This document shows positions 44,106-48,645 of a stretch of DNA of 64,000 nt, in pieces. Under the pieces are notes generated by a model. It searched no databases. It was not told where the DNA came from and saw only the letters and a list, made by a program, of their open reading frames with translations. Every line of letters starts with the position of its first letter. Positions within the stretch are counted from its first letter, which is position 1. A program made the translations under genes and the position numbers. Origin of the DNA: Actinomycetospora succinea (GTDB taxonomy: Bacteria; Actinomycetota; Actinomycetes; Mycobacteriales; Pseudonocardiaceae); the NCBI RefSeq assembly GCF_004363095.1, contig NZ_SNYO01000001.1, positions 1,178,001 to 1,242,000 on the forward strand. The letters run 5' to 3'.

Positions 44106-44768
44106 TCAGGGCGCGCCCAGCAGCCCCCGGCACGCATCCAGTCCCTGAACCGCGAGCGTCCACTCCGGACGCCGCCAGTCGTCGGGCGTGAGCCGGCTGC
44201 GCAGCAGCAGCGCCGGGCGGCCACGGCGGACGTGGCGCTCGACGCCGTCGGGGGAGTAGCCGAGCCGGTCGGAGACGCGCCGCGAGGCGGAGTTGTCGGC
44301 GAACGCGCTGGTCCGCGCCGCGCGGGCGCCGAGGTGGTCGAAGGCGAGCGCGACGACCGCGTGGCGCATCTCCGTGCCGAGCCCGCGGCCCTGCGCCGCC
44401 CGGGTGAGCCACGACCCGCTGCGCACCTCGCCCAGCACGCCGAAGTCGGTCGCCGCGAGCGTCTGCATCCCGAGCACCCGGCCGCCCTCGCGGACGAGGA
44501 AGTTGACAGTCCACCGCGTGGGCCCGAGGTCGGCGCGGCAGCCCCAGGCGTACTGCATGACCCCGCGCGCGAAGCCCGGGTCGCCGGCGCCGTCGGTCCA
44601 GGGCTCGAGGAACGGCATCTGGTCGGCGGGGTGGACGCCGTCGAGGGCCCGGTCGGCGAGCGCCGCGAGGCCGACGTCGTCGTCGGGACGCAGCTCGAGC
44701 CGCGGGGTGCGCAGCACGAGCCCGGCCAGCGGCCAGTGCCGCAGCGGGTCGGCGGGATCGGGGGCCAT
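44106..44768 (-). CDS. GNAT acetyltransferase (RimJ/RimL type)
   Basis: 220 aa N-acetyltransferase. The opening LVLRTPRLELRPDDDVGLAALAD, the middle GSWLTRAAQGRGLGTEMRHAV (acetyl-CoA pyrophosphate loop) and SASRRVSDRLGY near residue 172 place it in the RimJ/RimL-like group. The substrate may be a protein N terminus, amine or antibiotic; unknown. Start ATG 44768. Divergent from the Ter-associated fusion gene. Confidence 0.85.
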   Translation of the reverse strand: MAPDPADPLRHWPLAGLVLRTPRLELRPDDDVGLAALADRALDGVHPADQMPFLEPWTDGAGDPGFARGVMQYAWGCRADLGPTRWTVNFLVREGGRVLGMQTLAATDFGVLGEVRSGSWLTRAAQGRGLGTEMRHAVVALAFDHLGARAARTSAFADNSASRRVSDRLGYSPDGVERHVRRGRPALLLRSRLTPDDWRRPEWTLAVQGLDACRGLLGAP

Positions 44769-44839
44769 CCACGCTCATCCTGGTCGCTCTCGCCGCGGAC
44801 GGTGGTGCTCCGTTCGCGCGTCTGGCATCAAGGACACCC

Positions 44840-47191
44840 GTGGGTGACGCGAGCTGGCCCGGCGAGGTCGTCCACGACGCCCTCGGTCTCGCGCTCGGCC
44901 CCGACGAGGAGGCCGTGCCGGCGCGCGACGTCGTCGGGCTGGCGCTGCGCCGCAACCCGCGGCGCGCGCACCTCCCGGTCGCCCGCCTCCTGGGCAAGCA
45001 CCTCCCGGTCGCGCCGGCGCGGGTCCGGTCGGCGGCCGAGGCGCTCGCCGACCGCGTGCGCCGCGGGCTGCCGGAGCACGGCGCGGCGCCCGTCGTCGTC
45101 GGGTTCGCCGAGAACGCCACGGCGCTCGCGCACCTCGTCGCCGACGCCCTCGACGCCGAGCACGTCGTCCACACCACCCGCCGGGTCGTCGCCGGCGCCG
45201 CGGTCCTCGCGGCCTTCGACGAGGCGCACAGCCACGCCCCGCGCCACGTCCTCGTCCCCGACGACCCGGGCGGCTGGACCCCCGACCGCCCCCTCGTCCT
45301 CGTCGACGACGAGCTCTCCACCGGCCGGACCGTCGCGGCCACCGTGCGCCGGCTGCACCGCCGCCTGCCGCGGTGCCGCTACGTCGTCGCGACGCTGGCC
45401 GACCTGCGGGGTCCCGACGACGACGCGATCCCGCGCCTCGCCCGCGAGCTCGGGGTCCGGGTGGACGTCGTCGCCGTCGCCCGGGCCGCCCTGACCGCTC
45501 CCGCCGACGTCCTCGAGCGCGCCGCGCGGATCCTTGCCGCCGAGCCGGACACGACCGCGCGGCCGTCGCCCGGCCCTCCGGTCACCGCGGTCTCCCTGTC
45601 CCTCGGGGGCGCCGCCGAGGGCGCGCGGCACGGGCTCGACCGCGCCGGGCGGGCCGCGCTCGGGACGGCGGTCCCGGGCGCGGCCGAGGTGCTGGCCGGC
45701 GCGCTCGGTCCGCGGCCCGGCCGGGTGCTCGTGCTGGGCTGCGAGGAGCTGCACTACCTGCCGGTCCGCCTCGCCGAGGCCCTCGCCGGGCGCGGGCACG
45801 ACGTCGAGATCGGGGCGACGAGCCGCTCGCCGCTGGTGGCGCGCGACGTCCCGGGCTACCCCGTCCGGTCCGCGCTCGCGTACGCGGCGCACGACCACGC
45901 GCTCGGGCACGCGCCGGAGCGCTTCGTCTACGGGGTCGGGGCGGGCCGCTACGACACGGTCGTCGTGGTCGTCGACGCCGCCGCGCGGACCCCGGCGCTG
46001 CGCGGTCCCGACGGTCTGCTCCCGCGCCTCGCCGCCGTCGCCGGGCGCGTCGTGGAGGCCGTGGTGCCGTGCCGTCCGCCGCGGCCCGCAGCCGGCCCCG
46101 TCGTGGCCACGCGCCGGGGCCCGGGGTTCGGCACCTTCGCCCGCGACGAGGTGGGCTGGCTGCTCAGCGACCTCGCGGGCCACGCGCTCGAGACCCCGAC
46201 CGCCGCGCGGGAGGACGCGATCGCGGCCGGGACCTCCTACGCGGCGACGCTGCCCGTCGAGCCGGCGCCGAGCCCGGCGTACGCGCGGGTGGTGGCGCGG
46301 GCGCTCGACCGCTCCGCCGCGCCGGTGGCGGCGGCGGTGGGTGTGCTCGCCGACCGGGTGCTCGCCCGTCGTGGCCGGGGCGCCGTGCTGGTGTCGCTCG
46401 CGCGGGCGGGGACACCGGTGGGGGTGCTGGTCCGACGGTGGGCGGCGCGCGTCCGGGGGGTCGCGCTGCCGCACTACGCGATGAGCGTGGTCCGCGGCCG
46501 GGGGCTGGACCGCGCCGCGCTGGACGCCCTCGTCGCCGCCCACGACCCCGCCTCCCTGGTCCTGCTGGACGGGTGGACGGGCGCGGGCGGGATCGCCGAC
46601 GAGGTCCGCGCCGACCTCGCCCGCTACGCCGCGGAGACCGGCGCCGTCGTCGACCCGACCGTCGCCGTGCTCGCCGACCCCGCGCACCGCAGCGCGCTCT
46701 ACGGCACCCGCGACGACCTCCTCGTGCCGCAGGCCTGCCTCAACGCCACGGTCTCCGGGCTCGTGTCGCGCACCGTCGCCCGCGCCGATCTCCTCGGCCC
46801 GGGGGCCTACGACGGCGCCAAGTTCTACGCGGAGAACGCGGCGGGCGACCGGACGGCGGCGTTCCTCGACGTGGTCAGCTCCCGGTTCGCTCCGTGTGCG
46901 CCGGCCCCGCCGGCCACCCCGCCCGACCATCGCGGCGCCCGCTACCTGGCGGCCCTCCGGGGCGACGGGGAGGCGGATCCCCGGCGGCTGCGGGGCGGGG
47001 TCGGCGAGACGCTGCGGGTGCTCCTGCGCCGCGACCCCGAGGCGGTGCTCCTCGCGCCCAATGCCGGGCCGGACCTCGACCCGGTGCGCCGGCTCTGCGC
47101 CGAGCGGGGCGTGGCGATCCGGCCGCTCCCGGCGTCCGCGGGCGGGATCGCCTCGCCGTACCGCTGCGTCGGGGTGCTCCGGACGCGATGA
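44840..47191 (+). CDS. PRTase-TRSP-StiP fusion of the Ter stress module
   Basis: 783 aa with several domains in one chain. Residues about 20-240 are a phosphoribosyltransferase-like domain with the PRPP-binding loop VDDELSTGRT near 154. Residues about 250-420 match the TRSP-type domain that follows it in Ter operons (VLVLGCEELHYLPVRLAEAL). From about 428 the StiP-type domain begins (GFGTFARDEVGWLLSDLAGHAL, later ALPHYAMSVVRGRGLD and LLDGWTGAGGI, itself PRTase-like). These parts are commonly separate genes. They were proposed (Aravind group) to make a nucleoside-like metabolite. GTG 44840. The HAD gene overlaps its stop (ATGA). No TerD, ATP-grasp or aldolase gene is adjacent. Confidence 0.82.
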   Translation: MGDASWPGEVVHDALGLALGPDEEAVPARDVVGLALRRNPRRAHLPVARLLGKHLPVAPARVRSAAEALADRVRRGLPEHGAAPVVVGFAENATALAHLVADALDAEHVVHTTRRVVAGAAVLAAFDEAHSHAPRHVLVPDDPGGWTPDRPLVLVDDELSTGRTVAATVRRLHRRLPRCRYVVATLADLRGPDDDAIPRLARELGVRVDVVAVARAALTAPADVLERAARILAAEPDTTARPSPGPPVTAVSLSLGGAAEGARHGLDRAGRAALGTAVPGAAEVLAGALGPRPGRVLVLGCEELHYLPVRLAEALAGRGHDVEIGATSRSPLVARDVPGYPVRSALAYAAHDHALGHAPERFVYGVGAGRYDTVVVVVDAAARTPALRGPDGLLPRLAAVAGRVVEAVVPCRPPRPAAGPVVATRRGPGFGTFARDEVGWLLSDLAGHALETPTAAREDAIAAGTSYAATLPVEPAPSPAYARVVARALDRSAAPVAAAVGVLADRVLARRGRGAVLVSLARAGTPVGVLVRRWAARVRGVALPHYAMSVVRGRGLDRAALDALVAAHDPASLVLLDGWTGAGGIADEVRADLARYAAETGAVVDPTVAVLADPAHRSALYGTRDDLLVPQACLNATVSGLVSRTVARADLLGPGAYDGAKFYAENAAGDRTAAFLDVVSSRFAPCAPAPPATPPDHRGARYLAALRGDGEADPRRLRGGVGETLRVLLRRDPEAVLLAPNAGPDLDPVRRLCAERGVAIRPLPASAGGIASPYRCVGVLRTR

Positions 47192-47934
47192 TCCTTGTGG
47201 CCGCCGATCTCGACCGGACCCTGGTGCACTCGGCACGGGCCGCCGGGCCGGTGCCCGAGGGGACCCTGTGCCTCGAGCGGCGCGGCGACGTCCCCACCGC
47301 GATGCTGACCCGCCGCACCGCCGCCGACCTGGCGGCGCTCGACCACCGCGCGGTCTGGGTCCCGGCGACGACCCGCTCGGTCGCCGAGTACGAGCGCCTC
47401 GACCTGCCCCGCCGGCTCGGCGTCGCGCCCCGGTTCGCGGTGTGCGCGAACGGCGGGGTGCTGCTGGTGGACGGGGTGCGCGATCCCGCCTGGTCGAGCG
47501 AGGTCTCCCGGAGGCTGGCGTCGGCGGCCTCCCAAGCCGAGGTCGCCCGGCGTCTCGGCGCGGCCCGCGAGGTCGACGGGTGCTTCTTCCTGGCGCGGGA
47601 GGCCGAGGAGGGGCTGGCGGCGTGGTGCGCGGAGCGGGGCTGGCGGGTGGACGCGTATCGGGACAAGGTCCACGTCCTGCCGGCGGCGCTGACGAAGAGC
47701 GCCGCGGTCGCCGAGGTCCGGCGCCGCACCGGGACGACGCACCTCCTGGCCGCCGGCGACTCGCCGCTCGACGCCGACCTGCTCGCCGCCGCGGACGCCG
47801 GGATCCAGCCGGTCGACGGGCGCCTGTACGCGTCGGGCTGGCGCGCGGACCACGTGGCGGTCACCAGCGGCCGTGGCCTCGCCGCCGGGGAGGAGATCGC
47901 CGCGTGGCTGGTGAGGGGCCTGCGGCCCACGTGA
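47188..47934 (+). CDS. HAD-family phosphatase of the Ter-type module
   Basis: 248 aa. The HAD motif I is AADLDRTLV with Asp7 and Asp9; a conserved Thr/Ser is at TAMLTRRT; the Lys is in VLPAALTKSAAV; and motif IV is LAAGDSPLDADLL. It starts at the ATG in the stop of the fusion gene, so the pair is one translational unit. In the proposed Ter pathway this phosphatase acts after the PRTase steps. It ends inside a long stem-loop. Confidence 0.85.
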   Translation: MILVAADLDRTLVHSARAAGPVPEGTLCLERRGDVPTAMLTRRTAADLAALDHRAVWVPATTRSVAEYERLDLPRRLGVAPRFAVCANGGVLLVDGVRDPAWSSEVSRRLASAASQAEVARRLGAAREVDGCFFLAREAEEGLAAWCAERGWRVDAYRDKVHVLPAALTKSAAVAEVRRRTGTTHLLAAGDSPLDADLLAAADAGIQPVDGRLYASGWRADHVAVTSGRGLAAGEEIAAWLVRGLRPT

Positions 47935-47976: not shown

Positions 47977-48645
47977 TCAGGCCATGTGCGTCCGCGGGCG
48001 CTCCTGCCGCACCCCGTCGACGACGACGTCCACGCGCTCGTCGTAGAACGCGACGAGCCCGGCGATGCGCGCGACGGCGGCCGCGGGGTGGTCGTAGGAC
48101 CAGGCGAGGTCGTCGTACCGGCCCGCCGGGGTGCGCACCGACCAGTACCGGCTGGTCACGCCCTTGTACGGGCACGCCGTCACGGTCGCCGACGGCTCGA
48201 GCAGCGAGGCGTCGACGGCCGTCGGGTCGAGGTACGCGCGCGTGGGCAGGCCGGTCTCGAAGAGCAGGACCGGGGCGTCGGACTCCGCGAGCACGACCCC
48301 GTCGAGCTCCACCCGCACCCGGCGCCGCGAGCGCAGCGCGTCGACGCGGACGTAGGGGCTGCGCGGGTGGACGCGGACCTCCTCGTCCTCCTCGAACCAG
48401 GCGTCGAACGCGGTCCAGGTCAGGGCGAGCGACCCGTCGTCGTGCCGGCGGTGGCCGGGGTCGGCGGCGAGGGCGTCGGGGTCGACGTCGTCCGCCGGGA
48501 TCAGCCAGCGCGGGTACCAGGGGTGCTCCCACAGGTAGCGCGCGCCGGTGGTGTCGACGACGATCCGTCCGCCGAGCCGGGCGCGCACCCGGCGCGGGCA
48601 GGGCTCGACGTGGCCGACGGGGACGGCGGGGCCGGGGAAGGTCAT
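47977..48645 (-). CDS. DUF427 protein
   Basis: 222 aa with a two-part DUF427 layout: an N-terminal barrel (ARLGGRIVVDTTGARYLWEHPWYPRWLIP) and a C-terminal one with VTACPYKGVTSRYWSV and a Tyr/Asp-rich turn. Function of the family is unknown; a role in small-molecule modification is often guessed. Its start overlaps the hydratase stop (ATGA), so it is the third gene of the GT-hydratase-DUF427 unit. Confidence 0.85.
   Translation of the reverse strand: MTFPGPAVPVGHVEPCPRRVRARLGGRIVVDTTGARYLWEHPWYPRWLIPADDVDPDALAADPGHRRHDDGSLALTWTAFDAWFEEDEEVRVHPRSPYVRVDALRSRRRVRVELDGVVLAESDAPVLLFETGLPTRAYLDPTAVDASLLEPSATVTACPYKGVTSRYWSVRTPAGRYDDLAWSYDHPAAAVARIAGLVAFYDERVDVVVDGVRQERPRTHMA

Follow-up and report, generated by a model that had tools for sequence, protein, structure and literature searches.

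A reduced, putatively Ter-independent form of the Ter-cluster biosynthetic module in Actinomycetospora

Two overlapping genes are considered here, which lie in a 64,000-nucleotide stretch (the window) of the genome of Actinomycetospora succinea, a member of the Pseudonocardiaceae. The first (44840..47191, plus strand) encodes a single protein of 783 residues with the domain order PRTase_2-TRSP-StiP-PELOTA_1, and the second (47188..47934, plus strand) an HAD-IIB phosphatase of 248 residues. In Ter clusters, genes of this kind form what Anantharaman, Iyer and Aravind (2012) reportedly treated as the "biosynthetic module". The pair is best explained as a Ter-independent, reduced form of that module, and we give this explanation as a whole a probability of about 0.5. 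The reduction itself, with no TerD, DUF475 or Ter-type HpcH detected, is real at the level of the genome and across the genus. This reduction is the main result, while the fusion as such is ordinary. In the following, families (f), genera (g), genomes (G) and loci (L) are referred to by code where needed, g1 being Actinomycetospora.

Ter partners in the genome and the genus

When reference proteins from Ter clusters were run against the window by tblastn at E ≤ 1e-5, no match to TerD, HpcH, DUF475 or ATP-grasp was found, in agreement with the original prediction that the Ter partners are missing nearby. Had the partners been encoded elsewhere the picture would be different, but neither TerD nor Ter-type HpcH was found in the whole assembly (23 contigs, 97% complete). 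TerD gave no match in this genome, in any of 18 Actinomycetospora genomes or in the three genomes of g139 and g140, two further genera of the family. It was found in all nine genomes of g142, from the same family, and in 36/36 StiP-bearing genomes of the families f20, f34 and f15, which were the part covered genome-wide of the 91 other genomes of the class with StiP over the cut-off. DUF475, the TerC-like family of actinobacterial Ter clusters, was likewise without match in the 18 Actinomycetospora and the three g139/g140 genomes, in a genome-wide search that did not extend to TelA, TerB or the remaining TerC families; it was found in seven of the nine g142 genomes.

For the Ter-type HpcH/C-C_Bond_Lyase, nothing in the genome reached E ≤ 1e-30, and the best score was 38.7 bits. 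The same profile gave 542-564 bits across the nine g142 genomes, weak generic matches only in the remaining Actinomycetospora genomes and g140, and none in g139. The CitE-like genes of the A. succinea genome match the profile weakly and over short stretches. Lack of HpcH is seldom seen in genomes with StiP, as 76 of the 80 that were searched (78 class genomes together with G000 and G438; 13 were left out, all of family f21) have it at this threshold. The four others are A. succinea itself, the g139 genome, G308, which is in 1,200 contigs, and G069, whose PRTase part lies at a contig edge.

ATP-grasp is uninformative, because its family matches 13 of 14 control genomes, and the actinobacterial stretches L041-L059, 19 in number and 9-20 kb long, include only one with a match to the Enterobacter Ter reference. 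Its absence was therefore rejected as a special loss. The genome search that had been proposed for terD, ATP-grasp and CitE-like genes thus supports the reduction as regards TerD, with weak CitE-like matches only, and tells nothing special about ATP-grasp.

It is very improbable that the partners are present and were overlooked, either through gaps in the assembly or through divergence of TerD and HpcH below the search threshold. The assembly is not closed, and matches of 34.4 bits (C-C_Bond_Lyase) and 32.7 bits (the best Ter-type ATP-grasp match, ATPgrasp_Ter) lie just above their cut-offs; the Enterobacter Ter ATP-grasp protein scores 132.9 bits. However, matches of this kind exceed the cut-offs in 4/14 (lyase) and 12/14 (ATP-grasp) of the control genomes, and the same searches recover the g142 partners, HpcH included in nine of nine. 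Moreover, TerD and DUF475 go undetected in nine StiP-bearing members of the genus that are 96-99% complete, in nine genus genomes without StiP and in the 99%-complete g139 genome.

Domains and altered residues of the pair

The fused gene has a GTG start, with AAGGA, its likely ribosome-binding site, 5 nt upstream (44830..44834, plus strand), and its guanine plus cytosine (GC) content by codon position (0.86/0.58/0.97) agrees with a coding frame. All Pfam domains are on the plus strand: PRTase_2 (PF15609; residues 32-216, 44933..45487; E 2e-55, 187.9 bits against a cut-off of 28.8), TRSP (PF12500; residues 260-387, 45617..46000; E 8e-27, 94.1 bits against 25), StiP (PF11202; residues 431-679, 46130..46876; E 2e-78, 263.4 bits against 28.7) and PELOTA_1 (residues 713-781, 46976..47182; E 2e-11). 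The latter is an L7Ae-like RNA-binding domain, with L7Ae matches in structure-database comparisons, and L7Ae-type chains also match this part when the StiP-PELOTA region is searched by sequence against the Protein Data Bank (PDB). The claim of a 783-residue fusion of PRTase, TRSP and StiP, in that order, is hence confirmed by open frame, coordinates and scores far over the cut-offs; the C-terminal PELOTA_1 domain had been overlooked.

The coupling to an HAD phosphatase was also correctly predicted: the two genes overlap by ATGA, the phosphatase gene beginning within the stop codon of its neighbour, and the DxD, Thr, Lys and GD..D residues of the family are all present (D7, D9, T61, K170, G190, D191 and D195, invariant in 13 aligned sequences). 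The protein has no Pfam match at E ≤ 0.01 and matches the HAD-IIB families of NCBIfam weakly, every score being below the family cut-off. Neither protein matched a PADLOC defence-system family. Against the PHROGs phage families the HAD had a single weak, unnamed match and the fused protein had none. Membership of the pair in a defence-system or phage family was rejected on these results.

The PRPP (phosphoribosyl pyrophosphate) loop of PRTase_2, DDELSTG (residues 156-162, 45305..45325, plus strand), is intact, with two acidic residues and T-G; D156, D157, E158, T161 and G162 are each kept in at least 97% of 69 rows. An AlphaFold2 model of the PRTase-TRSP part, with a predicted local distance difference test (pLDDT) of 80, is similar to adenine/xanthine phosphoribosyltransferases, and in a profile search against PDB sequences PyrR gave the only matches, which were weak (E 0.001-0.006). 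Within StiP, the motif RAGTP (residues 522-526, 46403..46417, plus strand) is conserved as well, R522, A523, G524 and P526 being kept in at least 97% of 71 rows.

Eight Actinomycetospora copies, that of G591 excluded, were compared domain by domain with 58-63 distinct other sources; sequences covering less than 60% of a domain were dropped (two for PRTase, three each for TRSP and PELOTA and five for HAD, of 63), and the five dropped HADs include all four proteobacterial and phage ones. The lysine of the StiP loop D-G-W-T-G-K-G (position 582) is present in 63/63 other sources and replaced by Ala, Ser, Thr or Gly in 8/8 Actinomycetospora; in the window the loop reads DGWTGAGG (residues 577-584, 46568..46591, plus strand). 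Column 617 of StiP is cysteine in 59/63 other sources and in none of the eight. In the HAD, the cap positions 155-162 and 207-212, near-invariant in 58 actinobacterial sequences, differ in Actinomycetospora, but they also vary in HADs of proteobacteria and phage and are hence not universal. Retained in the eight copies are the PRPP loop of PRTase_2 and the catalytic residues of the HAD.

These changes bear on the proposal, made in the original prediction, of a compact pathway that works without TerD. Its TerD-less, reduced state is borne out in genome and genus. That the same nucleoside-like product would be made, with another cellular aldolase in place of HpcH and with the fusion channelling an intermediate, seems to us unlikely. 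The four domains, their order and the HAD family are as in Ter-linked loci, and the catalytic residues of PRTase_2 and HAD are retained. A Rhizobium plasmid combines PRTase and StiP genes with an HAD-like gene, neither HpcH nor ATP-grasp being matched in 17 kb nor TerD in the record, and a viral contig of 234,900 bp has PRTase, HAD, StiP and TerD genes with no HpcH match in 17 kb. On the other hand K582 and C617 of StiP and the HAD cap positions have been changed, HpcH is seldom absent elsewhere, and the CitE-like genes of the genome match the Ter profile poorly. Because near-invariant residues of both StiP and the HAD have changed, altered chemistry is at least as likely as a compact route to the same product, and we would put an altered product, or an altered StiP role (regulatory, by binding nucleotide or RNA), somewhat ahead of a shortened route to the original product.

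StiP looks like a second phosphoribosyltransferase-like fold and not a cysteine protease. The best structural matches of its model by VIA-align are PyrR, with 12-16% identity over the aligned part. Phosphoribosyltransferase matches to StiP-PELOTA were not found in the PDB sequence search. Binding or transfer of PRPP by StiP is a putative activity, and the loop lysine of the 63 other sources is lost in the window. The fused protein would be a regulated protease if the Pfam name of PF11202 were taken literally, and the cysteine of column 617 in most other sources could be seen in that light. We consider this hardly credible: an alignment of 20 sequences contains no invariant cysteine, column 617 is not cysteine in any of the eight Actinomycetospora copies, and the model aligns with phosphoribosyltransferases. 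The family was presumably called PRTase_1 in Pfam at an earlier time. In its excerpted text, a 2017 paper lists a PRTase_1 domain beside PELOTA_1, which fits that name.

Fusion, ancestry and function

The frames of the PRTase and StiP parts were compared, and a locus was counted as fused when a single open frame, uninterrupted by a stop, ran through both; this state was read in 47 of the 91 StiP genomes. Besides the genome of the window, 33 of these 47 are fused, comprising 25/25 genomes of g28 (family f21), which we take to be Streptomyces, and 8/22 elsewhere. In the family of the window the two parts are separate genes in g142 (9/9), g139 (1/1) and g140 (2/2), and the StiP loci of Actinomycetospora are eight fused copies and one frame-broken copy. 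On gene trees the state switched at least five times. The fusion is thus frequent and recurrent in actinobacteria, and both the view that it is the novelty of the locus and the predicted special character of the fusion had to be given up. Neither are all these domains separate genes in known Ter operons, as had been stated: in L107, where the genes are separate, Pfam places PRTase_2 and TRSP on one protein and StiP and PELOTA_1 on another.

Twelve fused loci outside Actinomycetospora were read in stretches of 11-20 kb, and TerD-family matches were seen in 12/12 and HpcH in 11/12; the stretch of the sole locus without HpcH (L049) starts at a contig edge. Fusion is not tied to partner loss, because g139 and g140 show no TerD or Ter-type HpcH and yet have separate genes. 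With many genomes fused in the presence of partners, the idea that fusion compensates for lost partners was discarded.

Close relatives of the pair occur in Actinomycetospora lutea, chibensis, cinnamomea and callitridis. The StiP scores of the genus (260-285 bits, against 316-355 elsewhere in the family) mark a divergent branch. In a careful tree of both parts, Actinomycetospora, g139 and g140 form one clade (10 rows, support 95/93), the switch from the complete to the reduced state occurring once, and a quick two-part tree gives the same split with support 96. G591, with its frame break, and L113 were left out of all trees; L049, L056 and the Rhizobium and phage rows are in the StiP-only tree and absent from both two-part trees, and L042 was kept out of the HpcH alignment as its range contained a stop. 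Position 162 of the HAD (47671-47673) is His in 8/8 Actinomycetospora and in the three g139/g140 copies, and the latter are the only ones of the 58 others that depart from Tyr, which the remaining 55 have; this change accompanies the missing partners. The partner-free state thus probably arose once, before the three genera of the family split, and the fusion would, within this clade, be confined to Actinomycetospora and later than the partner loss.

Several observations weigh against the reading of the pair as a reduced, Ter-independent module of single origin. A quick StiP-only tree does not join the three genera and places g140 among partner-bearing lineages (88, 92, not starred). The joint clade depends on an Actinomycetospora stem that is long (1.18 changes per column) and biased in its letter composition, and the two g140 assemblies are 87% complete. 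Owing to the disagreement of the StiP-only tree and to this long, biased stem, a single loss is likely and not certain. The g139 and g140 genomes, which show no HpcH or TerD, keep the StiP lysine, so that its loss is specific to Actinomycetospora and not simply a result of losing these partners. Confidence in the StiP model is low, with a mean pLDDT of 60 and values below 60 in the loop, Foldseek ranks L7Ae chains first for it, and a profile-profile comparison found no relation of StiP to PRTase_2-TRSP, by which kinship of the two at the level of sequence profiles was rejected. Nine of the 18 Actinomycetospora genomes have a StiP match and nine have none (three of these nine assemblies are 59-84% complete), and the pair is dispensable in view of this. 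The copy of G591 (L080, equivalent to L115:888-3232) is frame-broken inside the fused gene, which may reflect either faulty assembly or a true loss. Finally, the enzymatic role of the fused protein is a prediction from sequence.

Some of the same facts, namely the nine genomes without StiP, the one broken copy, the long stem and the lost lysine and cysteine of StiP, are what would be expected if the pair were a decaying, functionless remnant of a lost Ter cluster. We find this improbable, since eight of nine copies are open across the whole fusion, the catalytic residues of PRTase_2 and HAD are intact, flanking genes are shared with most other loci of the genus, and PRTase, StiP and HAD remain together in g139 and g140 too. 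Ratios of nonsynonymous to synonymous substitution rates (dN/dS, NG86) lie at 0.23-0.38 over the full length of the fused gene (four pairs) and at 0.24-0.41 over the HAD (three pairs); calculated by domain, they fall within 0.14-0.42 for all domains and pairs. Third-position GC is near saturation, which makes these values rough, but they do not suggest decay.

In the reduced-module reading, a single polypeptide would hold two phosphoribosyltransferase-like domains, TRSP and an L7Ae-like RNA-binding domain, next to an overlapping HAD phosphatase gene. PRTase_2 would move the phosphoribosyl group from PRPP onto a base or nucleophile, and the HAD would remove the 5'-phosphate or use a related sugar phosphate as its substrate. 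The outcome would be a small ribosylated molecule, made with no HpcH step and with no TerD as receptor. Having lost the loop lysine, StiP would more likely be a regulator binding nucleotide or RNA than a catalyst of the ancestral reaction. The partner-free state would have come probably once, before the three genera split, and the fusion afterwards in Actinomycetospora.

By analogy with PyrR one may speculate further on a self-contained, RNA-linked ribosylation, in which the product of PRTase_2 is trimmed by the HAD, non-catalytic StiP-PELOTA senses a nucleotide and binds kink-turn-like RNA, and control at the RNA level takes the place of TerD-family receptors. This is a long shot, but if true, such control would reside inside one polypeptide.

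The unit consists of two genes because its neighbours, both on the minus strand, are a divergent GNAT acetyltransferase on the left (44106..44768) and a convergent DUF427 gene on the right (47977..48645). Both were assigned by Pfam, lie outside the module and each adjoin the pair in six of eight other Actinomycetospora loci. At least one flanking gene is common to the window and seven of the eight other StiP-bearing loci of the genus in the stretches fetched; L110 shares none.

Comparison with known systems

The biosynthetic module of Ter clusters is treated in PMC7824862, PMC8115787 and PMC5571608, as far as their excerpts go. In the excerpt of PMC7824862 the biosynthesis part consists of PRTases and HAD phosphoesterases, whose product, derived from a nucleoside or nucleotide, acts as a signal that TerB and TerD possibly sense; there and in the excerpt of PMC8115787 the product is described as a prediction. 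On this signal view the Actinomycetospora pair would keep synthesis and have lost the receptor. Among the literature matches listed, no paper identifies the Ter biosynthetic product, and none reports a TerD-free module, a PRTase-StiP fusion or the Actinomycetospora pair. Soil bacteria that keep two enzyme genes of a stress-response system, its other parts being undetected, are a natural test of their stand-alone role, and a two-gene system is open to purification and assay and separates synthesis from sensing. Two direct ways into the chemistry are offered by the probable phosphoribosyltransferase-like fold of StiP and by a Ter HAD that is nearly identical to a solved "trehalose phosphatase".

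Relatives of the module were also seen outside the actinobacteria. On a Rhizobium phaseoli plasmid (L084:6714-9970) PRTase, StiP and HAD-like genes adjoin one another. Neither HpcH nor ATP-grasp gave a match in a 17-kb stretch there, and TerD gave none in the record, the chromosome not having been searched. Five scans for viral relatives gave two contigs only. A viral contig of 234,900 bp (L088:3025-9071) carries vWA-like, DUF475-like, TerD, PRTase, HAD and StiP-PELOTA genes, with no HpcH or ATP-grasp match in a 17-kb stretch. A 65-kb contig classed as viral (L085:3798-15331) carries an apparently near-complete Ter cluster with ATP-grasp-like, PRTase, HAD, StiP, HpcH-like and TerD/TerB/TerC-like genes, the gene names being given mostly by eye. 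In addition, a 346-residue protein with no Pfam match lies next to HpcH in L082 (7735-8775), and relatives of it with 36-46% identity occur in L044-L047, L057, L058 and L126.

A profile of the HAD matches the solved 6d3v/6cj0, "Trehalose phosphatase" (E 3e-48), a match that is helped by closer Enterobacter and Rhizobium rows in the profile; the window sequence by itself gives E 1.4e-5 to 6d3v. The HAD of a Pseudomonas aeruginosa plasmid Ter cluster (L127:6064-6822) matches 6d3v over its full length (E 2e-159). Its catalytic residues are the same as those of the window HAD, but the two share 27% identity only, and the HAD of the P. aeruginosa plasmids, which is near-identical to the solved 6d3v/6d3w/6cj0, belongs to a Ter cluster in which ATP-grasp, HpcH and TerD are present, unlike that of the window. 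According to the excerpt of a 2019 paper (PMC6838324), an "extra-chromosomal TPP from P. aeruginosa" was assayed, with citation of Cross 2018 FASEB J. We infer that this is the 6d3v protein, which suggests a sugar phosphate as the in vitro substrate of an HAD from a Ter module. Hydrolysis of trehalose-6-phosphate is a candidate activity of the window HAD, by homology to 6d3v. None of the literature matches listed links a Ter-module HAD with the solved trehalose phosphatase.

PyrR, an RNA-binding phosphoribosyltransferase regulator, is the best structural match of the StiP model, but it is not known to have a separate L7Ae-like domain, whereas the window protein has PELOTA_1. The fused protein of g28, for instance that of L041 with 820 residues, has the same four Pfam domains in the same order and an adjoining HAD, as in the window. 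It differs in retaining the StiP loop lysine, and in the g28 loci L041, L042, L123 and L124 HpcH lies beside the fusion, with TerD and DUF475 in the stretch (4/4), which is not the case in the window. The modules of g139 and g140 (L107, L108 and L109) are like that of the window in that no TerD, DUF475 or Ter-type HpcH was found in the genomes, and they join its genus in one clade of the two-part tree, but their PRTase and StiP parts are separate genes and the StiP lysine is kept. With the Ter-cluster module in general, the pair shares PRTase_2-TRSP, StiP-PELOTA_1 and the HAD, adjacent and co-directional. It departs from it in lacking detectable TerD, DUF475 and Ter-type HpcH in genome and genus, in the fusion of all four domains and in the changed StiP lysine and cysteine and HAD cap parts.

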